Of a DNA stretch of 23,796 bases, positions 4,025 through 23,517 are shown piece after piece. The notes below the pieces were generated by a model that saw nothing but the letters and a program-made list of their open reading frames with translations, was not told where the DNA came from and did not search any database. This stretch comes from a virus. A program made the position numbers and the translations under genes. The DNA lies in the IMG/VR virus record IMGVR_UViG_3300043313_002960, positions 1-23,796 of that record; one strand, written 5' to 3'. How positions within the stretch are numbered: position 1 is the stretch's first letter; every line of letters starts with the position of its first letter.

Positions 4025-5626
4025 GTGACGCTGTTTCGCCCACCGAGCAAGCTGCCGCCCGACACGCCTTCGGGCCTCGGCGCCGTGCTCGGCAAGGCGC
4101 TCACTGAAATCTACGGGGATCTCAAGGCGCTCACCCAGAGCGCGGGGGATGTGAGCGTCGCCACGAGTTCCTACCGCGCGAGCGCGGGCGAGACCAAGCG
4201 CGTCTCTCCTCCGGTCGCGGGCATGGGCTTCATCTTGCCTGCGCCGTCGCCCGAGAATCGCGGCAGCACCATCAGTGTTTTCCTCGAGCAGCCCGAGGGC
4301 GCGCTGCGCGTATTTGTGGCGCCCAATGCCACCAATGACGCGACCGTCAACGGCACGGAGATGGTCAGCTTCACCACCGAGGGCCTGGTTGTTTTCGAGA
4401 GCAACGGCGTCAACCGCTGGAGCGCGATGACGGGCGTGGTCGGCGCGACGGGTGCCACCGGACCGACGGGGCCCACGGGGGCTACTGGAGCTACGGGCGC
4501 GGCATCGGCTGCAAAGCGCATCCGGACCGAGATCTATCGCGCGGACGGTTCGCTCGAGACCCTCGACGAAAACGGCGCCTCGGTCACTACCACCTCGAGC
4601 ACATGGTCTCTGCAGAGCGACGGCTACCGCTATCGCGTTTGGCTGGTCCCGGGCGGCACGGGCGGCGCGCGCGCCCCGCGCACCAATACCACGGGCGCCG
4701 ATTTCACCGGGCCCTCCGGGTCGGGCGGCGGCGCAGTGGGGGATCTTTGGTTCGGCCGCGATGAGCTAGCGGCTTACATTGCAGCCATCGGCACGCCGAT
4801 CCCTGTCACGGTGGGGTTGGCCGGAGCGGGAGCTTCAGCCGGCTCTGCTGGCTCCGGCAATGCCAACGGCGCCCAAGGCACGCTGGGCGGCGTCTCGGCG
4901 TTCGGCGCACTGCTCGCCGCCTATCCGGGCGGGCGCGGCGGCACCAATACCAACAACGGTTCCTCCGCGGCTTCCGGCGCGGGCGGTGGCGGCTGGATGA
5001 GCGCCGGGGCAGACGGCACCGTTGCCAATCAGCCCGGCGGATCTCCGAATGACGTCGATTCGGCCAACACGAAGGACAGTGACTTCGGCGGCGGGCGCGG
5101 TGACACGGGCGCGGCCTCGACGGGCGCGTCGGTCTACGGTGGCGGTGGCGGTGGCGGCAACGCAGCCGGATCCGGCACGAACGGACGCCCCGCGGGGCGC
5201 TCGCTGCAAGGGGTTCCCGGCGCTGGTCCCGGCGGCAGCCTCGACACCACAGGGCCCACGGCGCGCAACGGCGGTGACGCGGGCAAACGGGGCTTCGACA
5301 CGACGGGCGGCACGGCTCCGGCGCTCATCACCGGCGGTGGCCCAACGGGTGGCGCCGGTGTTTCGGGGGCGGGCAACGGCGGCAACGGCGGCGACGGAGC
5401 GGACGGCATCCTCGGCCTGTACCCGGGCCAGAGCGGCGCCGGCGGAGGCGCCTTGATAGCCACCAGTGGCTCGACCTCGAGCACGGGGCGGGGCGGGGAC
5501 GGCGGCTTTCCAGGCGGCAGTGGTGGCTCGTCGGGGGTGGGCGTCGTCAGTGGCGCCACAGCCGTCACGATCGCCCGAGGTGGCGATGGGAAAAACGGCG
5601 TCGTAGTGGTGTTCACCTACGGCTGA
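4025..5626 (+). CDS. Tail fibre/adhesin with collagen-like and glycine-rich domains
   Basis: A 533-aa protein starting at GTG three bases after the preceding stop. Residues 1-135 form a mixed helical/strand head likely to attach to the virion. Residues about 140-160 are seven collagen-like G-A/P-T triplets (GATGATGPTGPTGATGATG), which in phage fibres form a trimeric stalk. A short strand region follows, and from about residue 210 to the end the protein is extremely Gly-rich (runs such as GGGGGGG and GGNGGNGGDGADG). Such domains resemble the polyglycine sandwich adhesins of some phage tail tips (for example the gp38-type adhesin), which bind host receptors. No chaperone gene is obvious nearby. 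Confidence 0.65.
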   Translation: MTLFRPPSKLPPDTPSGLGAVLGKALTEIYGDLKALTQSAGDVSVATSSYRASAGETKRVSPPVAGMGFILPAPSPENRGSTISVFLEQPEGALRVFVAPNATNDATVNGTEMVSFTTEGLVVFESNGVNRWSAMTGVVGATGATGPTGPTGATGATGAASAAKRIRTEIYRADGSLETLDENGASVTTTSSTWSLQSDGYRYRVWLVPGGTGGARAPRTNTTGADFTGPSGSGGGAVGDLWFGRDELAAYIAAIGTPIPVTVGLAGAGASAGSAGSGNANGAQGTLGGVSAFGALLAAYPGGRGGTNTNNGSSAASGAGGGGWMSAGADGTVANQPGGSPNDVDSANTKDSDFGGGRGDTGAASTGASVYGGGGGGGNAAGSGTNGRPAGRSLQGVPGAGPGGSLDTTGPTARNGGDAGKRGFDTTGGTAPALITGGGPTGGAGVSGAGNGGNGGDGADGILGLYPGQSGAGGGALIATSGSTSSTGRGGDGGFPGGSGGSSGVGVVSGATAVTIARGGDGKNGVVVVFTYG

Positions 5627-6186: not shown

Positions 6187-6426
6187 TTACTTCGGCACGC
6201 GGCAGTCGAGGCGCTCACCCGTGCGCACGTGGTAGGTTTCGCGCGCCCAACTCCCGAGCGGTTGGTGGATCTTCACCGCACCGAGGCAGGTTTCTTCGCT
6301 CTCGAGGTTGACCAGCCCCCGCACCGCGCCCGTCACCATGTCGACGGCGACGAGCAGGGTGCGGCTCTCCGCGTGCGCGGCCGAGGCCAGCAGCAGTGCG
6401 GCCACTAACGCCCGGGCGCTCATCAT
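6187..6426 (-). CDS. Small exported protein with signal peptide, partner of the metalloprotease
   Basis: A 79-aa protein with a clear signal peptide (MM-SARALVAALLLASAAHA, cleavage expected after residue 19 at A-H-A). The mature part is about 60 residues with two Cys (47 and 75) that could form a disulfide in the periplasm. No family is recognised. Its ATG overlaps the stop of the metalloprotease gene by four bases (ATGA), so the two are translated from one message and probably coupled. It might be an inhibitor, activator or accessory of that protease; this is inferred from linkage only. The pair is on the strand opposite to all flanking phage genes, as expected for an acquired cargo unit. 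Confidence 0.7.
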   Translation of the reverse strand: MMSARALVAALLLASAAHAESRTLLVAVDMVTGAVRGLVNLESEETCLGAVKIHQPLGSWARETYHVRTGERLDCRVPK

Positions 6427-6992
6427 TGTCGCTCCGGGTGAGCGAGATCCTCGTACCGGGCGAGCGCCTCCTGCCGCACGTCATCGCCGTAGCAGACGAC
6501 AGGCAGGGTCGCGGCGCCGTACTCGGACGCGAAGGCGTCGAGCGCCGCCTGGTCCACGCAGGGCGAGTGGCGGGCATCCCTGCCACGGCCTGGGTTCATC
6601 AGCGTCACGCCTGTGCCGTGGGCAAGGCCCAGGGAATGGCCGAGTTCGTGAGCGAGCGTGCTGATTTTCTGGTCGAGGTACATGCTCTCCGAGAGACGAA
6701 TCTCGTGGGCGGGGGTGTCGCAGCAACCGTTGACGGTGCCGACCTCGCCGCACTCCGCGAGCATCCCGGGCAATTCCCGGATGCAGTAGGTCTCCGAACC
6801 GTCGCAGCCCAAGTGTACGTCGGGCGCGTACAGGCCCCCCGTGGCGCGCTCCCACATCACGATCGCGGAGAGGGATAGATCGCTGATGGTCGGGTCGAGG
6901 CCGAGCGTCGGGTGTAGGCGCGGGTCTTCCGCGGGAGCAGTCCCGGAGCAACCGAGAGCGAGCAGTAAGCCAACCAGCAACGCGCGCGTCAT
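6423..6992 (-). CDS. Secreted lipoprotein zinc metalloprotease (matrixin-like, HExxHxxGxxH)
   Basis: A 189-aa protein. The start is a signal sequence ending in LALGC, which satisfies the general lipoprotein pattern with Cys15 as the lipid-bearing residue and Ser at +2, so export to the envelope of a Gram-negative cell is likely. Residues 115-125 read HELGHSLGLAH, the zinc-binding HExxHxxGxxH of metzincins, with Glu116 as catalytic base, followed at 131-134 by LMNP, a plausible Met-turn. Many Cys (63, 70, 81, 90, 91, 145, 167) suggest disulfides. It is at the small end for a metzincin catalytic domain and has no obvious propeptide. It is the first gene of a two-gene minus-strand unit. The substrate is unknown. 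A role in envelope modification, superinfection exclusion or host fitness is inference. Confidence 0.8.
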   Translation of the reverse strand: MTRALLVGLLLALGCSGTAPAEDPRLHPTLGLDPTISDLSLSAIVMWERATGGLYAPDVHLGCDGSETYCIRELPGMLAECGEVGTVNGCCDTPAHEIRLSESMYLDQKISTLAHELGHSLGLAHGTGVTLMNPGRGRDARHSPCVDQAALDAFASEYGAATLPVVCYGDDVRQEALARYEDLAHPERQ

Positions 6993-7657: not shown

Positions 7658-7908
7658 ACCTGCTCGAGCAGTGGTCGGATCACGCTCTCACGCCCGGCAA
7701 GCTGCTGCCCGAGTGCGCGGTATGCGGTAAGCCCGTGGAGAGCGCGAGCGCGCGCCGCTGGAACCACAAGAACGCGTGGGAGCTGGTTGTGCACTGCCAC
7801 GGCGACACCGAGTCGGTCACCGTCGACATGAAGGAGGCGATCGTCGCTCAGAACTACGGGGGCATCCGCTTGGGCAGGGCGTTCGAACACCCGAGGATGC
7901 TTCCGTGA
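7654..7908 (+). CDS. Small zinc-ribbon-like protein
   Basis: An 84-aa protein starting at GTG within a GTGA overlap; longer upstream extensions of this frame run over the preceding gene and are not credible. It has a CAVCGK knuckle (Cys21, Cys24) and, later, WNHK (His38) and VHCHGD (His47, Cys48, His49), enough ligands for one zinc ion. No signal peptide or membrane segment is seen. The next gene, the endolysin, overlaps it by four bases. Its role is unknown. Small proteins of this type next to endolysins occur in many phage lysis cassettes without known function. Confidence 0.5.
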   Translation: MNLLEQWSDHALTPGKLLPECAVCGKPVESASARRWNHKNAWELVVHCHGDTESVTVDMKEAIVAQNYGGIRLGRAFEHPRMLP

Positions 7909-8492
7909 CCCCCGAGGACATCCGGGAGTTCCAGCGCTCCCACGTGGACCCGTTCGACCAGCCCCTCCGGATCGACGGCGCCATAGGCCCGCTCACCCAG
8001 TGGGCGCTCGATCTGTTCAGCTGCAGCCCCCGAAGGCGAGCGGTCGTCGCGCGCGCTCAGGCCGCGGTCGGGGTCACCGAGGACCCTCCGGGGAGCAACC
8101 GGGGTCACCGCATCGACGAGTGGCTGCAGCGCTGCCATGTCTCGACGGGCCTACCCTGGTGCGCGGCGTTTGCGTCCTGGTGCCTCGATACGGTAGCGAT
8201 CGCGGGAGCTCAGGCGCTCGGCCATCACTTCCCCGCCGTGGACTCGCCCTTGCCGGGGGACCTGATGTGGTTCTCGACGGCTGCCTCCACCGGTCACTGC
8301 GGCATCGTGGTCGGCCTCGGCCCCCACGAGGTCATGACGATCGAGGGCAACTGCGCGGACGCGGTGCGGGTCGTGCGGCGAGCTCGGGACCGGGTGAGGT
8401 TCAGCTCGACCGGGCAGGACATCCAAGGGACGTGCCCGGGGGCGCTGCCGGTCGTGCCGTTCTTTGGTACGAGCCTGGAGGGCACGCGGTGA
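7905..8492 (+). CDS. Endolysin, CHAP-type cysteine peptidase/amidase with N-terminal peptidoglycan-binding-like segment
   Basis: A 195-aa protein starting at GTG in a GTGA overlap; in-frame extension upstream is shadow sequence. Residues 6-35 (FQRSH, then LRIDGAIGPLTQWAL) match the 'R.DG.iGp.T..Al' signature of peptidoglycan-binding repeats. Residues 47-150 form a CHAP-like domain: Cys86 in PWCAAF as nucleophile, His131 in GHCGIVVG, and Glu147/Asn149 in TIEGN as the third catalytic position. It would cut peptidoglycan cross-links or the amide to the glycan at the end of infection. There is no signal peptide, so it needs a holin or the like. It lies in a five-gene coupled cassette. Confidence 0.8.
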   Translation: MTPEDIREFQRSHVDPFDQPLRIDGAIGPLTQWALDLFSCSPRRRAVVARAQAAVGVTEDPPGSNRGHRIDEWLQRCHVSTGLPWCAAFASWCLDTVAIAGAQALGHHFPAVDSPLPGDLMWFSTAASTGHCGIVVGLGPHEVMTIEGNCADAVRVVRRARDRVRFSSTGQDIQGTCPGALPVVPFFGTSLEGTR

Positions 8493-8707
8493 TCCTCGGA
8501 GCCCTTGGCCGAGCCATCTACTGGACGATCGGCGCCGTGCAGGCCGTGATCGAGGGCGTGGGCGCCGGCAGGAGGCTCATCCGGCAGGTGAGAAAGGGCA
8601 TCGTCCCGATGGTGGACGACACCCAGCCGATCCCGCTCAGCCACCGGGATGTGGGGCGGATCCGGGCGCAGGTGGACGCGGCGACCCAACCACCGGGTAC
8701 CGGGTGA
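8489..8707 (+). CDS. Hypothetical small protein with N-terminal hydrophobic helix
   Basis: A 72-aa protein starting at GTG overlapping the endolysin stop by four bases (GTGA). Residues 1-25 are moderately hydrophobic (ILGALGRAIYWTIGAVQAVI) with a Gly/Ala small-residue face, followed by a basic stretch (GRRLIRQVRKG) and a polar tail. This could be a peripheral membrane or amphipathic helix protein assisting lysis, or a small virion protein, since the large late operon begins right after it. No family is recognised. Confidence 0.45.
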   Translation: MILGALGRAIYWTIGAVQAVIEGVGAGRRLIRQVRKGIVPMVDDTQPIPLSHRDVGRIRAQVDAATQPPGTG

Positions 8708-8711
8708 CACC

Positions 8712-11700
8712 GTGGGGGTAATCACGCGCTACAAGCTCGACGGCGGCACCAATAGCGCCGCCGCTCGACGCATCCTGCCGCCCGAGGGGTTGATCCGGCG
8801 CGCGGTCAACTTTCGGTTGCGCCGCGACAACGAGCTCGAGCAGCGGCCCGGGTTCACGGCCCTGGCGAGCAGCCTCTACGCCTCGATTCTGACCGTTCGC
8901 ATTCACGATCTGGTGAATTACGACGGGCGCCTATTCGGCTTCGGCTCCAATAGCCAGCAGGCGACGGCCAACGTCCTGGGATTCTTCGAGTACGTGGGGG
9001 AATTCAAGGCTTGGCGTCAAATTGACAAGGGCAAGTCGCTGCCACTGGCCACTGACATTCGAGATCTCGCCAGTCCCGCCGATATCGAGCAGGGCGTCCG
9101 TACCGCGACATGCGCCGTCAACGACGATATCTGTGTTTTTGCTTTCGACGCCGGCAACACATCGACGGCTGCCTTTGCGACAGTTTTTCGCCCCAGCGAC
9201 GGCGCGGTACTGTTGCGCCTCGACCTATCGAGCCTGCTGCGGCCGATCTCCCTGCTACTCGCGAGCGGGCTATTTGTCATCGTGGGCAACAACGCCGTCG
9301 GGACCGCGTTACGGGCGCGCTCCTTCAACGCAGCGAGTGACAACACGATATCGGCCACGAGCACGCTGTACACCGTCGACACGTTCGTTTTTGCCGCCGG
9401 AGCCGTGCTCGGTTCTCCAGGAGGGTTCGTTACTGTTGGACAGCTCGCGGGCGACTTGGTCATTCGCCACTACAACGATAGTTTCGTCCAGCAGATGACC
9501 GTGACCAAGGCGGGTCTCGCCTCGAATTATTTGTCGATTGCCGCCAACGGCCCGCAGAACCGAATCACTGTCCTGTATGGGGCATCAGGAGCCACGGTCA
9601 AGGCGCTCACGATCAATCTCGCCACCGGCGCGACCGTGACGGGCCCCACCGCTGTTTTCACCAATACAACGACGGGTCTGCACAGCGTGCTCTACCAGGA
9701 CGCGGTGTCTGCCACCTTTCGCATCCTCGTCGACGTGACGAGCGTGACTCCACGAGCCGTGGGCATCGCCCAATCCGATGACGCGCACGTTGGACTAAAC
9801 CAGACGCTCACCTCTGGAGTGGGATCGGGCAGCTGCTATTTGTCCGCCCAGCTGTCTAGCGAGGTGCTGAGTGTCGATCCCATCGGGCAAGGCTTCACGT
9901 CGGGCTTCGGCTTCCTCGCGGGAGGCACGGACCAGAAAGTCAACGCACTCGGCACGCTCGGTGAAGTGCACTTTTTCAAGGACTTTGGCACCGCGATTGC
10001 CAGCAGTAAACGCCTGGGCTCGCACGTGCGTGACGCGGTGACTGGCAAGTACTACCTGGTCACGATGGCCGCGAATAACGACGGCGAGGAGACCGCCTTT
10101 GTAACCGAGTATCGCGGGGGCGGCATCCGTCGCCGGCAAACAGCCGTCATCGGTGGCCTTCTCTACATCGCCAACGGCCTACCCCTCGTGACCGATGGCT
10201 ACGCGGCCCACGAGATCTCCTGGGGTGAAGCGCCGGAGTTTTTGACACTGACGAGTTCAGGGGCAGGCGGCAGCGTCACGTCGAGCGCGCGCTATTTCAT
10301 CCAGTGCTGCGCCGAGTACGTCGACTCGCGGAAAAACAGCCACCTCGGTCCACCGTCCACCGTCCAGGACATCACCACGGGCGCCGCCGACAATCGCATC
10401 ACAGGCACCATCTCGGGTCTGCATTCCTTGCGTAAAGCCGTGAGCGGCTCGGGGGATAGCGGCAGCTTCCGGCTAGTATTCTTCCGCACGGCGGCCTTGG
10501 CCGATCTCAGCGCGGGGGAGTTGCTGTTCCGGGAATCGCAGACGAGTATCCCGCTGAGTGATGACTTCGGCGATACCTTTGCGTTCACGCTCACGCTGAG
10601 CGACGCGCAACTGCGAGCCATCGGCACGACCATCTACACCCAGAGTCAGACCCCGGTGCCGAACCAGGCCCCGCCTCCCTGCCGGTTCGTTTGGCCGCTG
10701 AACGATCGCCTCGGGGCCGCGGGGCTGCCGCGCGCAGAGCAGATCCTCGAGAGCAAGCTCGTGTTCCCGGGCGAGGCCGTGGCCTTCACCGATAGCGATC
10801 TAGTCCAGTACCAGTACCGCGCGAGCGAGGACGTGCGCGGCATCGCTCGGCTCGGCAGTAACCGGGTCGCCTTCACGCGCAACGAGATCCACCTCTGGCA
10901 AGGCGAGGGCCCGGACTTCAGCGGGCTCGGGGAATTCAGCTACGCCGCGTGCCTCTCGAGTGAGGGCGGCTTAGTCGACACCGACGGCTGGCGGAGCCTG
11001 TGCGAGACGGACGAGGGCACGTTTTTTCAGCGCGAGTTCGACCAGATCTGCCTCTTGCAAAAGGGCGGAAGCGTCGATCGCAAGGTGGGCGAAGCCGTCC
11101 GGGACGAGCTGGTGACCTACCCGGTCGTGGTCGCGACGGCGTTTCTGCGTCGCAGCCATCACGTCGCTTTCGCGATCCAAAACGCCGCGGGGGACGCGGG
11201 CGAGATCCTGGTCTATGACCTGCGGCGAAAGGTGTGGTTCGTCGATGACGTCGGGGTGGTCGATGCCCTGTGCGAGTACCAGGGGCGACTCGTTTACTGT
11301 ACGCGTGCGGGCGCCGTCTTTCAGCAAGACGCCCTGCCCGGCACGGGCTCGATGCCGACGCAGGTACTCGACACGTACGATTTCGATTTCGGCTCGGGGC
11401 AGAGCTGGGGTCGCAGTCTGAACGCCGGCATGGTGGGCGAGTACCAGGGGGACGCTACCCTCGCGCTCAGCATCACCTATGACTCGGGCCTCAGTTACAC
11501 CGCCATTGGCAGCTGGGCCATCACCGCGGCCAACGGCTACAGCGCGGGCAAGCTCTTCAGCGAGAAAAAAGCCATCCCCGATCCGAAGTGCGCTCTGTTC
11601 GGTCTGCGCTGGCAAATCTCTGGTAGCAGTGGCTCGGCGGGCCTGCGCATCAATGAAGTCACGCTCGAAACCGAGACCGCTCCCGGCATGCAACGCTTGC

Positions 11701-11720
11701 CAGCGAGGGACACACAGTAA
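8712..11720 (+). CDS. Large beta-rich tail protein, nozzle/packaged-DNA-stabilisation type
   Basis: A 1002-aa protein read from GTG 8712, four bases after the preceding stop; the upstream extension lies over the preceding gene and is rejected. It opens with 'RYKLDGGTNSAAARRILPP', then 'NFRLRRDNELEQRPGFTAL', a phrase common to beta-propeller tail proteins of short-tailed phages, where the N-terminal segment threads into the adaptor/portal ring. The rest is almost all beta strands, with blocks such as YYLVTMAANND, GGGIRRRQTAVIGG, YNDRLGAAG-like turns and a C-terminal jelly-roll-like end. No membrane segment is seen. The first half looks less GC-rich than neighbours. Family proteins include P22 gp10 and T7 gp12 types. 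The length exceeds both, so an extra domain is likely. Confidence 0.55.
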   Translation: MGVITRYKLDGGTNSAAARRILPPEGLIRRAVNFRLRRDNELEQRPGFTALASSLYASILTVRIHDLVNYDGRLFGFGSNSQQATANVLGFFEYVGEFKAWRQIDKGKSLPLATDIRDLASPADIEQGVRTATCAVNDDICVFAFDAGNTSTAAFATVFRPSDGAVLLRLDLSSLLRPISLLLASGLFVIVGNNAVGTALRARSFNAASDNTISATSTLYTVDTFVFAAGAVLGSPGGFVTVGQLAGDLVIRHYNDSFVQQMTVTKAGLASNYLSIAANGPQNRITVLYGASGATVKALTINLATGATVTGPTAVFTNTTTGLHSVLYQDAVSATFRILVDVTSVTPRAVGIAQSDDAHVGLNQTLTSGVGSGSCYLSAQLSSEVLSVDPIGQGFTSGFGFLAGGTDQKVNALGTLGEVHFFKDFGTAIASSKRLGSHVRDAVTGKYYLVTMAANNDGEETAFVTEYRGGGIRRRQTAVIGGLLYIANGLPLVTDGYAAHEISWGEAPEFLTLTSSGAGGSVTSSARYFIQCCAEYVDSRKNSHLGPPSTVQDITTGAADNRITGTISGLHSLRKAVSGSGDSGSFRLVFFRTAALADLSAGELLFRESQTSIPLSDDFGDTFAFTLTLSDAQLRAIGTTIYTQSQTPVPNQAPPPCRFVWPLNDRLGAAGLPRAEQILESKLVFPGEAVAFTDSDLVQYQYRASEDVRGIARLGSNRVAFTRNEIHLWQGEGPDFSGLGEFSYAACLSSEGGLVDTDGWRSLCETDEGTFFQREFDQICLLQKGGSVDRKVGEAVRDELVTYPVVVATAFLRRSHHVAFAIQNAAGDAGEILVYDLRRKVWFVDDVGVVDALCEYQGRLVYCTRAGAVFQQDALPGTGSMPTQVLDTYDFDFGSGQSWGRSLNAGMVGEYQGDATLALSITYDSGLSYTAIGSWAITAANGYSAGKLFSEKKAIPDPKCALFGLRWQISGSSGSAGLRINEVTLETETAPGMQRLPARDTQ

Positions 11721-12766
11721 TGCCCGAGACCGACTACAGCCAATACCAGGACCCGACCTCGATGCCGGGTTACCAGGAGCGGTACAACACTGCCCCTGCC
11801 CCCGCGACGGAAAAGCCCCCCGCGCCCGATGGCTGGCCCGGTTGGAAATGGAGCGCGGGCAACAACGCCTGGAGCGACGCGCACGACACCGCGGGGCACC
11901 AAGCCTGGCTGCAGCAGCAACAGGTGCAGTCGACCGCCAGCCAATACACCGCCCCCACCCTCGCCGACGTGCAGGCGCAAGGCGGAGGGGCAGCGGCCTT
12001 CACTCGCGACCCGAAGATCGACCCCACCCAACTCGACCCGGCGCGAGCCGCGCGCGACGCGGCCCTCGAAGACCAGCGCTCGACCCTGAAGTTCGCGCTC
12101 GGACTCGAGGGGCCTCAGGCGATCACGCCCGAGGAGCGCCAGGCCCTCGAGCAGCGCTTCAGCGAACGGGCGACCCTCGCAGCCAACAGCGTCGCCATGA
12201 ATGCGCGGGGGGGCGCGGGGGCGCAAGCTGCCGCACGGCTCGGGGTCAACCAACAGATGCCGGCCATCGCCGGAGAGGCCAATCTCGCCGCCACGCAAGC
12301 CGCCAATCAGGACTACCAGGCACGGATCCAGGCGTTCAACGCGCGAGTGGGTCAGGCGCAGACCGCAGGCGGCATCGCCAACACCATCGGGCAGACCTCG
12401 ACCGCTGCCTTTGGCCAAGAGGCGCAGGTGGCCGAGAGCGGCGCGCAGATCGACCTCGGCAAACTCGGCATCGACGTGCAGAACCAGAGCTTGGTCAACA
12501 ACATGATCCAGCACGTCAACGAGCTCGGCATCGACTACGCCAAGCTCGACATCTCGGTGCAGGAGAAGATCCTCGACGACATGACCCAGCGCTACGGCAT
12601 CGACAAGCAGGCCGCGACCCAGCTGAAGATCGCCGCCCAACAGGCAAAGAAAGGCCCGCTCGATTACCTCGCCACCGTCGCCAAGATCGGCACGGATGTG
12701 GTCGGTGCCGCGGGCGGACTCGGCCTGCTCACCAAACCCGCCGCGGCAGTGATCGGGGGGGTGTAA
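11720..12766 (+). CDS. Ejection/internal virion-type protein A
   Basis: A 348-aa protein; its ATG overlaps the previous stop by one base (TAATG). The first 75 residues are Pro/Gln/Trp-rich (DGWPGWKWSAGNNAW). Residues about 90-290 are Ala/Gln-rich helix (AANLAATQAANQDYQARIQ style), and the end has a Gly/Ala hydrophobic segment (VVGAAGGLGLLTKPAAAVIGG). This composition, with long Ala/Gln helices and a soft hydrophobic end, is common to proteins ejected with DNA by short-tailed phages, which assemble a channel across the envelope. No lytic transglycosylase motif is seen. It is the first of three such genes in a row and is likely coordinated with them. I do not recognise a family. Confidence 0.5.
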   Translation: MPETDYSQYQDPTSMPGYQERYNTAPAPATEKPPAPDGWPGWKWSAGNNAWSDAHDTAGHQAWLQQQQVQSTASQYTAPTLADVQAQGGGAAAFTRDPKIDPTQLDPARAARDAALEDQRSTLKFALGLEGPQAITPEERQALEQRFSERATLAANSVAMNARGGAGAQAAARLGVNQQMPAIAGEANLAATQAANQDYQARIQAFNARVGQAQTAGGIANTIGQTSTAAFGQEAQVAESGAQIDLGKLGIDVQNQSLVNNMIQHVNELGIDYAKLDISVQEKILDDMTQRYGIDKQAATQLKIAAQQAKKGPLDYLATVAKIGTDVVGAAGGLGLLTKPAAAVIGGV

Positions 12767-17820: not shown

Positions 17821-19785
17821 ATGCCCTATCAAAAGTCGTGGCACCGATTCACCAAGATGGACGCTCCCGGTGAGCTCGCCAAGGCCGCCCAACAGGCCAT
17901 CACCGACAACGAGCCACGCTACAGCTGGGCGGTCAAGTTCGCCTCGATCTTCGAGGGCTCGCTGCTCACCTCGTTTCTGCCCGTGGGCTATGCCCTGCAG
18001 TCGACGAACGTGTTCCCGGGCCTGAAAAACCGTCTCACTCGGCGCAAATGCCGCAGCGTCGTCAAGGGCGCGCACGCGCTTCTGTGGGGCAACGATGACC
18101 CCTTGCCGCAGTTCCGGAGCGTGGGCGGGGACTGGTCGACGCAGACCATGGCGATCCTCCTGAACCGGGCGATCGATGCCGAGTACGAGCAGAGCCAGGG
18201 CAAGTTCGACAACCAGCACGACCTCTGGCGCCATGCCGGCATGATCGCGATGGGCAGCGTCGGCAGTGTAGCGGTGTTCGAGTTGCCGGGCTGGGGCAAG
18301 ACAGAGGCGCGCATCAACGATACCTTGACCATGTCGCTCGAGACCAGCGGGCCCTATGGCGGGGTCCTCGGCTGCGTGTGTACCGACTACTACGAGCCGG
18401 AGGAATTGTGCCTGCGGTTCCCTTCGCAACGGGAGGCGATCGAAAAGAACGCGACCACGATGTGGGCCTTGGGAGAGAAGCGCTCGGGGCAGAACGGGCG
18501 GACCCGCATGCAGCAGCGCTGGGTGGTCGAGGTCCACATGGGCTATCGCTGCAGCATTCGCGGCGAGGACGGGCGCAGGCTTTGGGTACTGCGAGACGGG
18601 ACGCGCCTCGGCAAAGATGAGGTCTACGAATACGACGAGCTACCGTGTACGATCCATCACTTCGAGCGCGAGACGGCGGGCGACTGGGGGATGCCACTCA
18701 CGGCCTACATCTACGAGCTCTGCATCCGGCACAACGAAATCACCCATGACGTCGATCAGAAACAGATCAACTCTCCCCAGCGGGTGGTGCAGGGGCCCGA
18801 GGCGACGCTGAAGAAAATCAGCGGCAAAACCAAGGGCACCATGACCGTGCCGAGCGAGATGGTCGCGAGCGACGTGCGCATCACCGACGTCAACAGCAAG
18901 GACGACTCGGGGATTGCGCTCGCGTCCCTCTATGCCCAATGGATCGACGAAGACGCCATGGTCGATGCTCGCCACCAGGGCGGCGCGGGCAAGCAAGCGA
19001 CCAGCGGCAAGCATGAAAAGTACCGCGCCAGCTATTTCACCGAGGCGTTTGCGCCCGAGAGCCGCCGCATCATTCACGCTCGCACGGTGCAGACCGGAAG
19101 ACGGAAGGTCCGGGCCTTGAAGGATATGATCCGCGAAGGCCAGGACATCACCCGCAGGTGGGAAAAGGGCTCGCTCTCGAGTGTCATCGATCTCGCTGAT
19201 CTCGACCTCGACGAAGACAAGTTCATGTTGCGCATTTCGAGCGTGAGCGAAGAGAAAAACTCTGTCCCGTCTCTGCTCGAGTGGGGCCAGCAGATGGTCG
19301 AGCAGGAAAAGGGCAGCATGGCGGAGCTCATTCAGTTCCGTCAGCACCTCGATGCCGACTCGGTGGGCGACCAGGTCAACCGAGAGAACGAGTGGGTCCA
19401 GCACCAGATCGAAAAATGGCTCCACGCCAAGGACTCCGAGCGGCAAGAGGACGGCTTTTACCAGTCGCCGCGAAAGAGCATGGATCTCGAGCGTATGGCG
19501 GACCGGGTCTCGCTCGAGTTGCTCGGCGCGGAGAGCAAAGGTGCGCCCCCGGATCGGCTCGAGTATTTCGAGCTTTTCTTGGAAGAATTGGCCGTTTTGA
19601 TTGAACAGAAGCAACTCGCCGATAAGACGAGCGTGTCGACCGTAATCGACCCGTCGCAGGCGTTCCCCTCACTCGGAGGTAGTAGCAATGGCGGAGCAGC
19701 AGGACCAGGACTCGGAACCCCAGGACTCGGAGGCGGAGGAAGTGTCCCCGCCCTCCCCGGCGGCGGAGCGCCCCCGCCCCTCTAG
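17821..19785 (+). CDS. Portal protein, podovirus-type
   Basis: A 654-aa protein with GAGGA just before ATG. Length and layout suit the dodecameric portal ring of short-tailed phages: an N-terminal region with helices (ELAKAAQQAITDNEPRYSW), a clip/wing region of strands (VVEVHMGYRCSIRGEDGRR), a core segment with helices and the phrase DVDQKQINSPQRVVQGP, then a region with R-rich helices (IIHARTVQTGRRKVRALKD), a putative DNA-facing tunnel helix, and helical barrel-like parts near 520-620. The last 30 residues are a Gly/Pro tail that overlaps the next gene. It would nucleate the head, hold the terminase during packaging, and later bind the adaptor. The call rests on size, pattern and terminase neighbourhood. 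Confidence 0.65.
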   Translation: MPYQKSWHRFTKMDAPGELAKAAQQAITDNEPRYSWAVKFASIFEGSLLTSFLPVGYALQSTNVFPGLKNRLTRRKCRSVVKGAHALLWGNDDPLPQFRSVGGDWSTQTMAILLNRAIDAEYEQSQGKFDNQHDLWRHAGMIAMGSVGSVAVFELPGWGKTEARINDTLTMSLETSGPYGGVLGCVCTDYYEPEELCLRFPSQREAIEKNATTMWALGEKRSGQNGRTRMQQRWVVEVHMGYRCSIRGEDGRRLWVLRDGTRLGKDEVYEYDELPCTIHHFERETAGDWGMPLTAYIYELCIRHNEITHDVDQKQINSPQRVVQGPEATLKKISGKTKGTMTVPSEMVASDVRITDVNSKDDSGIALASLYAQWIDEDAMVDARHQGGAGKQATSGKHEKYRASYFTEAFAPESRRIIHARTVQTGRRKVRALKDMIREGQDITRRWEKGSLSSVIDLADLDLDEDKFMLRISSVSEEKNSVPSLLEWGQQMVEQEKGSMAELIQFRQHLDADSVGDQVNRENEWVQHQIEKWLHAKDSERQEDGFYQSPRKSMDLERMADRVSLELLGAESKGAPPDRLEYFELFLEELAVLIEQKQLADKTSVSTVIDPSQAFPSLGGSSNGGAAGPGLGTPGLGGGGSVPALPGGGAPPPL

Positions 19786-20752
19786 CGTAGACCCCGCGGC
19801 GCAGAAGGCCGAGCGTCGTCGCGAGCACCTAGAGCGCGCGCTCAAGGCGAGCGGGCGATCCCTCGACGGCAAGCCCGTGGCCAAGCCCGAGGGCGACGAC
19901 GAGCCCGCCTCCGATGAGGAGGAAAAAGAGGAAGCCAAAGCGGACGAGCCTGACCCGGATGCTCCCCAGCGCATCGACCTCGACAAGGTCAAAAATGGCA
20001 AGCACGTGCGCAAGGCCAAGGAGCAGCTCGCGAGCGAGCGCAAGACCCTCGACGACGAGCGCAAGGCGCACAAGGAACAGGTCGCAGAAGACGCGCGCAT
20101 CAACGCCGCGGCCGATCGCGAGTACGGCCATGTCGCCGCCTCCGCCGTCGCCTACCGCGCCAAGGATTACCGCAAGGTCGCCCCCGCGCTCGAAAAACTC
20201 TATGGCGAGCCGTTCCACAAGATCGCGCGAAACATCTACGAGGCCACCAAGGACGGCATGCCCGCGGCCGATCTGCGCCACGAGATCAACGAACTGCGCG
20301 CCCGACTCGACGCCAAGGCCGACGGCGACACGAAGGACAAGGCGCAGACCGAGGCCCAGGCTGATGAGAAACGCGAGCGAGCCGCGTTCGAGAAGCGCAC
20401 CAAGAGCCACGGTCTCAGTGAGCTCGCCGACACCGAGCTGAACGATGAGGCCTTCAAACTCTACTACGATAGCTGGGACGACGATCTAGAAGAGTACTCG
20501 CTCACGCCCAAGGCCGCAGCCGACAAGGTCCTGGCCAAGGAACAGCGCCGCGCCGAGCGGCTCACGGGCAAGCGCATTGTTTCCCGTGAAACACCCCGCC
20601 GAGAGACCCGTGAACGCGCAGAAACGCGCGAGACTCCCGCGCAAACCAAGCCCTACAGCGAAATGAACAAGGAAGAGCGCCGCACCTGGGCGCTCGACAT
20701 GGCCCTGCGAAAGACCGCCCAGAGCAAACGCGCCCGGGAGCGTCAGCTATGA
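19688..20752 (+). CDS. Scaffolding-like protein
   Basis: A 354-aa protein with a strong Shine-Dalgarno sequence (GGAGG at 19675-19679). The first 98 bases are read in another frame as the portal's Gly/Pro tail. The N-terminus is very acidic and Ser/Pro-rich (MAEQQDQDSEPQDSEAEE), the middle is helical and coiled-coil-like (KAKEQLASERKTLDDERKA), and the end is basic (RRETRERAETRET, RAREERQL-like). Acidic start, coiled middle and basic helical tail, a Trp-poor composition, and a place right after the portal gene are the hallmarks of phage scaffolding proteins, whose basic C-terminal helix binds the coat protein. No protease motif is seen. The capsid gene is not adjacent in this window. Confidence 0.6.
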   Translation: MAEQQDQDSEPQDSEAEEVSPPSPAAERPRPSSVDPAAQKAERRREHLERALKASGRSLDGKPVAKPEGDDEPASDEEEKEEAKADEPDPDAPQRIDLDKVKNGKHVRKAKEQLASERKTLDDERKAHKEQVAEDARINAAADREYGHVAASAVAYRAKDYRKVAPALEKLYGEPFHKIARNIYEATKDGMPAADLRHEINELRARLDAKADGDTKDKAQTEAQADEKRERAAFEKRTKSHGLSELADTELNDEAFKLYYDSWDDDLEEYSLTPKAAADKVLAKEQRRAERLTGKRIVSRETPRRETRERAETRETPAQTKPYSEMNKEERRTWALDMALRKTAQSKRARERQL

Positions 20753-21618
20753 GGCTCCTACCGAAGAAGGATTACGTCATCCTTCGCGCGCGGCCGGGGC
20801 TGCTCGAGGAAACCACTTCGAGCGGGCTCGTGTTCACCCACGGGGCCCTCGACGCCTCGCAGGCGGCCATCGCGGCAGCGGTCAACACGGTCGGGTTCGT
20901 GCCTCTGCACCACCTGCAGGCCGTCTCCGGCGGGCACTCGGGCGATCCCGAGGCCATGAGCTTCGCAGAGGTCGTGGCGGTGGGACCCGGGCACCCCGGC
21001 ATGCCCGAGGATCGCCCGGGCCTGCAGAGAGGCGATCTGGTCGGCTACCTCCGCAACCGCGTGGCGGGGGAGCTCGACGATTTCGAGACCGGAAAGCGCG
21101 AGCCGCTCTTACAGATCCACGAGCACGGTATCCCCGTCCGCTACCCGAGGGGCGCGGGAGAGCTCCCGGAGCCGCTCAGCAATTGGGTCCTGACCTGCCC
21201 CGACCCGGTTGCTGCTGCCCGGGCCCTGGGGCGTACGCTGCCGCTCACCGAGGAGGAGGTGTCCCAGGGCGTGGTCGTCAGGGTGCGGGACACCCCCAAG
21301 CCCCACGGCGGGGCGGGGCGGGGCCATCAGCAGCAGAGCAGGGTGGCAACGCGCGCCGATCGGGTCGTTATCGAACGGGTGGTCGCGACGGGGCCAGGTC
21401 GGTGGGTGCGGGCCGTGTTCAGCGACCGGCGAGAGTTCCCGCAGGCCAAAGAGCTCTGGGTGCCGAACGACACCGGCCAGGGCGAGCTCCTGATGCTACT
21501 CGGCTGCGGCGGTCGGGCGCGGTTTCGCCTGCACGGGCAGTCCTATTCGCTCGTGCCCTGGAGTGAATGTTCCTGCGCCATCGACGAAAGCGTGCTGGTG
21601 AGCGCGTGGGCGAGCTGA
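20749..21618 (+). CDS. Tandem GroES-like (Cpn10-like) protein
   Basis: A 289-aa protein; its ATG overlaps the scaffold gene stop by four bases (ATGA). The first half reads like a co-chaperonin: LLPKKDYVILRARP (GroES 'RPLhDRViVkr'), a mobile-loop-like EETTSSGLVFTHG ('ktagGIVLtG'), then FAEVVAVGPGHPG and GLQRGDLVGY ('geVlAVGnGr', 'vkvGDiViF'), with an insertion at about 31-70. The second half (about 174-282) has GVVVRVRDTPKP, VVATGPGRWVRAV and a C-terminal YSLVPWSECSCAIDE ('vliM.esDIlaive'), suggesting a diverged second copy. GroES is about 97 residues, so this is roughly a fused pair with inserts. It may help fold the capsid or replace host GroES, as T4 gp31 does. Confidence 0.65.
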   Translation: MRLLPKKDYVILRARPGLLEETTSSGLVFTHGALDASQAAIAAAVNTVGFVPLHHLQAVSGGHSGDPEAMSFAEVVAVGPGHPGMPEDRPGLQRGDLVGYLRNRVAGELDDFETGKREPLLQIHEHGIPVRYPRGAGELPEPLSNWVLTCPDPVAAARALGRTLPLTEEEVSQGVVVRVRDTPKPHGGAGRGHQQQSRVATRADRVVIERVVATGPGRWVRAVFSDRREFPQAKELWVPNDTGQGELLMLLGCGGRARFRLHGQSYSLVPWSECSCAIDESVLVSAWAS

Positions 21619-22142
21619 CCCGGGCCCTTGCCGATCGCCTGATCGGCAGCTGCAACAAATTCGCCTACCACGAGCAGGTCGCCTACGGAGAAGGCGTCAC
21701 CATCGGCGAGTTACGCGACTGGCTCGAGCGGGGCGCGGTCGTCGATGAGAAGGACAGGGACCCGCAAAAGCAAGAGCTTCGCCGGTTCACCCGCGAGTAC
21801 TGCCGCACCGACGCGGTCTGGGCAAAGACCATGTTTGACGAAATGCTCGCTAACACCCGCAATCCGCGCGCGGCGAGCCAGCCCCAGCTCTGGGCTTGGT
21901 TCGAACGGCGCTGGCCCGTCGGCAGTCCCTTGGCGATCGGCACCCTGCTCGCCTCCGAACGGGTGGAGCAGCTGAGCCTGGACGAGGCTTTCACGGCGCC
22001 CAATGCGGTGATACAGACGGCGCTCGACCGCAACGGCTACTTCCGGGTGACGGATCTCGACAATCCGAGCGAGGGGCTCACTCGCGCGCTCAGCGCCGCA
22101 GGGTACTCTCGTGCTGGACCCGAACCGAGTCCTACGGGCTAA
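21606..22142 (+). CDS. Small terminase subunit candidate
   Basis: A 178-aa protein if it starts at GTG 21606, overlapping the preceding stop by 13 bases (ATG 21567 in the same frame is an alternative with a longer overlap). Residues 24-43 (QVAYGEGVTIGELRDWLERG) look like the helix-turn-helix start of phage small terminases. 'KTMFDEMLANTR' and then 'LWAWFERRWP' (95-104) match the usual 'wra..wlLerr.P' signature of that family. It would recognise packaging DNA and recruit the large subunit. The adjacent large terminase gene overlaps it by 32 bases, which supports the call. The HTH match is by eye. Confidence 0.55.
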   Translation: MGELTRALADRLIGSCNKFAYHEQVAYGEGVTIGELRDWLERGAVVDEKDRDPQKQELRRFTREYCRTDAVWAKTMFDEMLANTRNPRAASQPQLWAWFERRWPVGSPLAIGTLLASERVEQLSLDEAFTAPNAVIQTALDRNGYFRVTDLDNPSEGLTRALSAAGYSRAGPEPSPTG

Positions 22143-23517
22143 GGCGAGCGCGAGCCGGTCGCTGCTTTCGGCGCTCACCCCCAAGCAGCTGAAGATCGAG
22201 CTCGACCCGTGGCACCTGCGATGCATCTACGGGCCCCGGCAGTGGGGAAAGACGACTTGGAGTGCGGTCGCTCACGAGCGGGCGTCGCTGCCGGGCGTGA
22301 CCAATCTAGCGCTCGCCTCGAGCGTGCACAAGGCCCAGGACCTGCTTTGGCCCGCGTTCGAGCGATTGAACCGCGAGCACGGCACTGCCATCAAGCTCCG
22401 GCAGGGCAAGGCGCTCTTTGCCAACGGTGGCGAATTGAAGCTGCTCGGCCTGAGCACCCTGGCGGAGGCCGAGAAGATCCGCGGCTATACCCCGGGATTC
22501 GTGAGCCTCGAGGAGGCAGGCACCGTACGGGACGAGTTGCTCGAGTTTGCGCTCTCGAGCTGCGCTCGGCCGGCGCTCATGCGGCACTTCCGTCGCGGCG
22601 GCAGGGGCACGGCCGTGCTCGGGACGCCATCGCGGAACATGGGGACATACTGGCACCGGATGTGCTTGGGCGAGACGGGTGCCTCGGTGCATTTTGCGAC
22701 CATCCACGATAACCCGTACATCGATGGTGAAGCCAACCTGCGCCAGGTGCTGATCGACAACGCGCGCCTCGGCTGGACGGAGTCGACGCCGGAATACCGC
22801 CGTGAGTACAAGGGCGAGTTCTGCAGCGATGAGGACTCGTTGCCGCTCGGGCGCTGGAACGGGGAGGTGTTGCCGCAACGTCTCGCGCCCGAGGAGGGCT
22901 GGACGGTGCTGACACTCGACTTTGGGCAGGTGCATTCAAACGCATGGATGGTGCACCGCCTGACGACCGAGCACGCCTATGATGTGGTGCGCAAACGGCA
23001 GGTGAGCATGCACAAGATCCACCTGATCCACGCCTACAAGGAAAACAAGATGACGACCGAGGGCGTGGCGGCGCGGACCCATGCCTTGCGCGAGCAATTT
23101 CACCCCAACGTCATCCGCGGCGACTCGGGCGGAGGCGGGGCGCAGAGCATCGCGGACATGCAGCGGCTGTACAACGTGCCGATCCAGGCGGCGCACAAAT
23201 CCTCGAAGAAGGGCGCCAAGCGGGACAAGATCTGGTTTTACGACTCGCTCCTCGGCAACCAAACGATCCAGGTCTACGAGCAAGCCGCGCCCTGGCAGAA
23301 AGAGGCCCGCACCTGCCCCTGGGATGACGAGCGAGAGGACTTTCACCCGCGCTACGACCATCACGCGCTCGACGCCGGGCTCTATGCGCTCGAGGATCTC
23401 ACCGCGCACATGACCGAGGAGGACTCCGAACCCATGCCCGGAACTGCCGAGTATGAAAAGCTCTCGAGCGACCGACGATGGGCGGAGCGGCTCGAGTACT
23501 TGCAGGGCGAGAGCTAG
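22111..23517 (+). CDS. Large terminase subunit (ATPase and nuclease)
   Basis: A 468-aa protein from GTG 22111. The ATPase part has Walker A GPRQWGKT (41-48), a Walker-B-like FVSLEEAG (130-137; Glu134 replaces the usual Asp, and Glu135 would be the catalytic carboxylate), and the coupling motif VLGTPSRNMG (169-178). The C-terminal nuclease (RNase H-like) part has LDFGQ with Asp270, GDSGGGG with Asp338, and the YDHHALDA end with Asp416 and Asp421. The enzyme cuts concatemeric DNA and pumps it into the portal. The start is inside the small-subunit gene. The stop TAG forms CTAG with the convergent gene's stop. Confidence 0.9.
   Translation: MLDPNRVLRAKASASRSLLSALTPKQLKIELDPWHLRCIYGPRQWGKTTWSAVAHERASLPGVTNLALASSVHKAQDLLWPAFERLNREHGTAIKLRQGKALFANGGELKLLGLSTLAEAEKIRGYTPGFVSLEEAGTVRDELLEFALSSCARPALMRHFRRGGRGTAVLGTPSRNMGTYWHRMCLGETGASVHFATIHDNPYIDGEANLRQVLIDNARLGWTESTPEYRREYKGEFCSDEDSLPLGRWNGEVLPQRLAPEEGWTVLTLDFGQVHSNAWMVHRLTTEHAYDVVRKRQVSMHKIHLIHAYKENKMTTEGVAARTHALREQFHPNVIRGDSGGGGAQSIADMQRLYNVPIQAAHKSSKKGAKRDKIWFYDSLLGNQTIQVYEQAAPWQKEARTCPWDDEREDFHPRYDHHALDAGLYALEDLTAHMTEEDSEPMPGTAEYEKLSSDRRWAERLEYLQGES

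Follow-up and report, generated by a model that had tools for sequence, protein, structure and literature searches.

A phage gene beside the terminase genes that may encode a Cpn20-like double co-chaperonin

Our results suggest that a virus carries the gene for a Cpn20-like double co-chaperonin, a protein in which two Cpn10 domains follow each other head to tail and which would cap the GroEL of the host for the benefit of a phage protein. On balance, we consider this reading probable. Both halves of the protein resemble Cpn10 in profile comparisons, the gene is conserved and under purifying selection, it lies next to the terminase genes, and the viral contigs that carry it showed no gene for GroEL.

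We analysed a stretch of DNA of 23.8 kb (the window), a virus record from IMG/VR. The gene, an open reading frame (ORF) that starts with ATG and stops with TGA, encodes 289 amino acids and shares four nucleotides with the ORF upstream (ATGA, 20749–20752). A preliminary description had reported the ORF and quoted motifs from it, and both were located in the sequence at 20749–21618. The gene, its parts and its neighbors are as follows.

17821–19785, plus strand: portal-like ORF, 654 aa, named from size, composition and gene order
19688–20752, plus strand: upstream ORF, scaffold-like, 354 aa, named from composition and place
20749–21618, plus strand: entire gene, predicted to encode a co-chaperonin with two GroES/Cpn10-like domains in tandem, 289 aa, from ORF, alignment and profiles
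20749–21156, plus strand: domain 1, Cpn10-like, residues 1–136, from profile comparison with GroES and the Pfam match of an orthologue (L003)
20749–20796, plus strand: first-strand motif of domain 1, MRLLPKKDYVILRARP, counterpart of M.IRPL.DRVIVK in GroES, from alignment and profile
20797–20844, plus strand: putative mobile-loop-like stretch GLLEETTSSGLVFTHG, residues 17–32, resembling a stretch of T4 gp31
20845–20958, plus strand: conserved insert of about 38 residues that contains NTVGFVPLHHL and is not found in GroES
20968–20991, plus strand: EVVAVGPG strand, residues 74–81, from alignment and profile
21157–21618, plus strand: domain 2, diverged Cpn10-like, residues 137–289, scoring above all shuffles and decoys against GroES and against domain 1
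21166–21207, plus strand: first-strand motif of domain 2, PEPLSNWVLTCPDP, residues 140–153, from family-level alignment to PLADRVLIKV in domain 2 of Cpn23
21373–21402, plus strand: ERVVATGPGR, residues 209–218, domain 2 counterpart of EVVAVGPG
21567–22142, plus strand: probable terminase small subunit (TerS), adjoining TerL, with a weak match to a PHROG TerS family (E=0.21)
22111–23517, plus strand: terminase large subunit (TerL), matching phrog_2 (E=6e-22)

The true start of the TerS ORF may be an in-frame GTG at 21606. The names portal and scaffold were given by size, composition and gene order, as neither protein has a significant match in Pfam or PHROG. A protein of 1023 amino acids (8649–11720) likewise has no match among the families of Pfam or PHROG; on the contig of L052, a family member, the portal-like and capsid-like ORFs matched no PHROG. 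That such large proteins lack family matches points to a poorly sampled phage lineage. The ORF at 7890–8492 (plus strand) contains a CHAP domain that passes the Pfam cut-off (E=1e-7) and probably encodes an endolysin or virion lysin. The zinc-peptidase signature of metzincins, HExxHxxGxxH, occurs as AHELGHSLGLAHG in a 189-aa ORF at 6423–6992 (minus strand), and several reprolysin/matrixin Pfam families match this ORF below their cut-offs. The ORF at 4025–5626 (plus strand), without a Pfam match, encodes a protein of 533 amino acids that is rich in glycine and has GATGPTGPTGATG repeats like those of collagen; it is perhaps a tail fibre.

We found six more members of the family, five on IMG/VR contigs and one on a metagenome-assembled (MAG) contig, which makes seven with the window protein. 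Judging from these, the double-GroES-like family looks rare. With the portal-like protein as the query, three contigs were recovered at 68–70% identity, TerL alignments led to two further contigs with the gene, and a scan of genome contigs led to MGUL01000118.1, where the copy is 84–88% identical by halves. All five viral contigs have the order scaffold-like gene, double-GroES-like gene, TerS, TerL; on MGUL01000118.1 the gene comes after a portal-like gene, the only neighbor checked there. Between the window gene and its closest relative dN/dS is 0.13 in the first part and 0.08 in the second, and pairwise values among close pairs range from 0.08 to 0.13; purifying selection hence acts on both halves. 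Because homologues sit at the matching place in relatives and dN/dS is low, 20749–21618 is a real gene and not a chance frame.

Several other searches yielded nothing further. A protein-pattern search of viral contigs returned no close relative of the window protein, and no further member was found in 340 genomes from the phylum to which the MAG with the copy on MGUL01000118.1 (L008) belongs. In one contig with a distant TerL (L053, 27% identity), inspection of the neighborhood revealed no GroES-like gene. The tblastn matches of the window protein to phages (E≥3, over lysin B) and of the L004 orthologue (E≥1, in Alt and ClpP genes) were dismissed as chance. L008 seemed to be a split gene with two frames, an idea we rejected since the break is an assembly N-gap. 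MGUL01000118.1 (L014/L015) is at least 41 kb long and appears to be a relative of the window phage. It was binned into the MAG Elusimicrobia RBG_16_66_12, and may be a host prophage, a free phage or a binning error. On a 40.6-kb relative (L017), Pfam identifies a phage integrase domain (E=5e-13) in a 619-aa ORF at 10518–12374; one member or more may therefore be temperate.

Taken alone, the sequence of the window protein gives weak evidence. It scores 16.3 bits against Pfam Cpn10 (PF00166), below the cut-off of 21.1, it has no match in PHROGs, NCBIfam GroES matches it weakly over residues 1–45, and a phmmer search of the PDB with this single sequence gave chance matches only. AlphaFold2 returned a pLDDT of 34 both for the full-length protein, with four sequences in the alignment, and for domain 2, with six; at this sequence depth neither run yielded a usable model, and the GroES beta-barrel fold is a prediction from sequence profiles. 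At the family level the picture differs. The orthologue L003 passes the same Pfam cut-off with 24.7 bits, and the orthologue L004 matches the PHROG GroES family (E=2e-4). The two GroES-like halves proposed in the preliminary description, and the Cpn10 profile match it called for, find support in the profiles of the family, not in the window sequence alone.

Of the two domains, domain 1 gives the stronger match to GroES. A profile of residues 1–136 built from six sequences, compared with a GroES set of 30 bacterial and 12 phage sequences, gave E=7e-8, and none of 60 column shuffles came near this score. When the insert columns were removed, the match improved to E=3e-9 and spanned the whole domain. 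The Cpn10 elements (first strand PLxDxV, mobile loop with its hydrophobic tripeptide, GxVxxVGxG, GDxV and C-terminal strand) are all present in domain 1 and in the GroES order, as had been claimed: MRLLPKKDYVILRARP, the loop EETTSSGLVFTHG, EVVAVGPG, GDLV and LLQIHEHGIPVRY. In addition, the insert of about 38 residues (NTVGF-PLHHL), conserved in the family, directly follows the loop. The stretch previously described as mobile-loop-like (EETTSSGLVF) aligns by eye with EEVTESGLII of T4 gp31, and in this loop comparison the window protein is compatible with a co-chaperonin of the gp31 type. Judged from its sequence, domain 1 is a Cpn10 homologue.

The second half was expected to be a weak repeat of the first, and this expectation held. 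The first-half profile finds the second half with a score of 30.4 (p=2e-4), compared with 20.0 for the best of 60 column shuffles, and the reverse comparison gives 28.8, where none of 27 decoy windows taken from proteins of neighboring genes scored higher than 15.6. Against GroES the domain 2 profile scores 24.7 (p=0.0025), with shuffles reaching at most 16.2 and the 27 decoy windows at most 13.6. By the same kind of evidence domain 2 is a Cpn10 homologue as well, one more diverged than domain 1. The proposed division into residues 1–150 and 170–289 has to be shifted, since domain 2 begins at about residue 138–142 (PEPLSNWVL). The domain 2 profile alone matched nothing in the PDB, and a lone zf-UDP match obtained when the second halves were run separately against Pfam was dismissed as chance. 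The alignment of the two domains spans the first strand, the long loop and VVAxGPGR. Because it runs through the long loop, the extended-loop layout is common to both halves, and duplication of one domain that already bore the insert would explain it. In three members the domain 2 loop carries CPACK or CPTCK (CPxC): L002 (7075–7950), L003 (10920–11807) and L004 (10941–11783). The motif, possibly a metal or redox site, is absent from the window protein, L048 and L052.

One could argue that only domain 1 works as a co-chaperonin and that the Cpn10 copy in domain 2 has decayed or taken on another role, in which it might, for example, bind the scaffold, a capsid protein or the terminase for delivery to GroEL. 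We think this is unlikely. The lower mean column identity of domain 2 (60% vs 70% in domain 1), its unclear hydrophobic mobile-loop tripeptide and the CPxC in the loop of three members would all agree with such a fate, but domain 2 is kept in every member, is under purifying selection (dN/dS 0.08) and retains its elements in the order of GroES, VVAxGPG and the C-terminal stretch among them.

A double co-chaperonin is also what a search of the PDB points to. Among all PDB chains, the full family profile matched only Cpn23 (E=0.0022) and Cpn20 (E=0.38), both from complex 7ekq. The Cpn23 alignment crosses from the first domain through the linker into the second. The domain 1 profile alone reaches only E=0.63 against Cpn23, whereas E=0.0017 is reached by a profile that begins at the VVAVGPG strand and takes in the junction and domain 2. 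This junction-crossing match is the strongest evidence that the two predicted domains form a head-to-tail pair. It also bears on the argument that an unrelated protein resembles GroES by chance, through short glycine/valine motifs. We regard this as very improbable: the sub-threshold matches of the window sequence and its pLDDT of 34 speak for it, yet the shuffle and decoy controls were exceeded, an orthologue lies over the Pfam cut-off, and the PDB search returned tandem co-chaperonins alone.

According to the sequence profile, the window protein shares with Cpn20, Cpn21 and Cpn23 of chloroplasts and apicoplasts two head-to-tail Cpn10 domains in a single chain. It differs from these proteins of the plant/algal lineage, which belong to plastids or apicoplasts, in being the product of a phage gene, in the long extra sequence in both loops and in its weak sequence similarity. 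Since it is encoded on phage contigs beside TerL, we call it Cpn20-like and not Cpn20. In the literature we found, double-domain co-chaperonins are described only for the plant/algal lineage, in the chloroplast, and for the malaria apicoplast.

The preliminary description was right that the window has no GroEL gene. None was found on the viral contigs of the relatives either, though these contigs may be incomplete. A groES-groEL pair is present in the genome bin to which the MAG contig was assigned, on a different contig. With no phage GroEL found, the protein would act on the GroEL of the host. T4 gp31 does the same for gp23 (PMC6318259), and we count the missing GroEL among the features common to gp31-type substitutes. 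Like the window protein, T4 gp31 and other phage GroES substitutes (PHROG 3188 and relatives) are phage-encoded and GroES-like and have a similar mobile-loop stretch. T4 gp31, however, is a single domain of about 12 kDa that forms heptamers (PMC6318259), whereas the window protein has two domains per chain.

How could such a protein work? It may assemble as a ring-shaped lid that caps host GroEL via the extended mobile loops, either replacing host GroES or mixed with it. Because the loops are extended, we propose that the folding chamber would be enlarged or otherwise adapted for a phage protein; the long extra loop sequence could also serve another purpose. The place of the gene suggests that the substrate is most likely a head or packaging protein, as gp23 is for T4 gp31. 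The gene probably helps the folding machinery of the host to produce phage head proteins. To match the seven sites of GroEL, either four chains could bind with one domain unused, or three chains could combine with one host GroES; both arrangements have been proposed for Cpn20. Paired domains are workable because cpn20 can substitute for GroES in E. coli (PMC3542282) and because GroEL functions with engineered chains of six to eight GroES domains, in which case one site or one domain stays unused (PMC5780408). A separately evolved Cpn20-type double co-chaperonin that forms such a mismatched four-chain ring, or a mixed ring with host GroES, and whose loops reshape the chamber to suit a protein of the phage head or of packaging, is a possibility that we put forward tentatively.

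The place between head and packaging genes would suit a protein with a structural or packaging role, such as head completion or association with the scaffold, that is built of GroES-like barrels and unconnected with GroEL. L003 weakly matches a PHROG named 'head morphogenesis' (E=0.019), a name that T4 gp31 bears too. We consider this quite improbable, as the only PDB matches of the family are co-chaperonins, a mobile-loop-like stretch is present, and other phages have a single-domain groES in similar places.

It had been suggested that a fused pair between scaffold and terminase genes would be unusual. This is true of the fusion but not of the place. A groES lies among head or packaging genes in PBR31, ctn9Y15, DSL-LC05, HTVC023P, Shewanella phage 1/44 and DSL-LC04, near terminase, portal or capsid genes as here, and we rejected the idea that groES near the terminase is unusual in itself. 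The groES of these six phages encodes one Cpn10 domain of 82–150 aa, while the window protein has two. A groES-like stretch occurs in 120 of 50,697 phage records, and the phage GroES and viral GroES from IMG/VR that we examined look single-domain. We found no description of a phage double GroES in the literature searched, of which coverage was partial. Hence, the position beside packaging genes is not new, while the double-GroES fusion appears to be new for phages.

How an even number of domains fits the seven-fold GroEL ring is still debated in the literature we found. A phage version, distant in sequence and with a probably independent origin, would give a second solution found in nature to this mismatch between even and odd, and one that would be testable with E. 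coli GroEL. It would also extend the gp31 theme, a phage-supplied GroEL lid for head proteins, to a group of phages whose other head proteins mostly lack a match to any known family.
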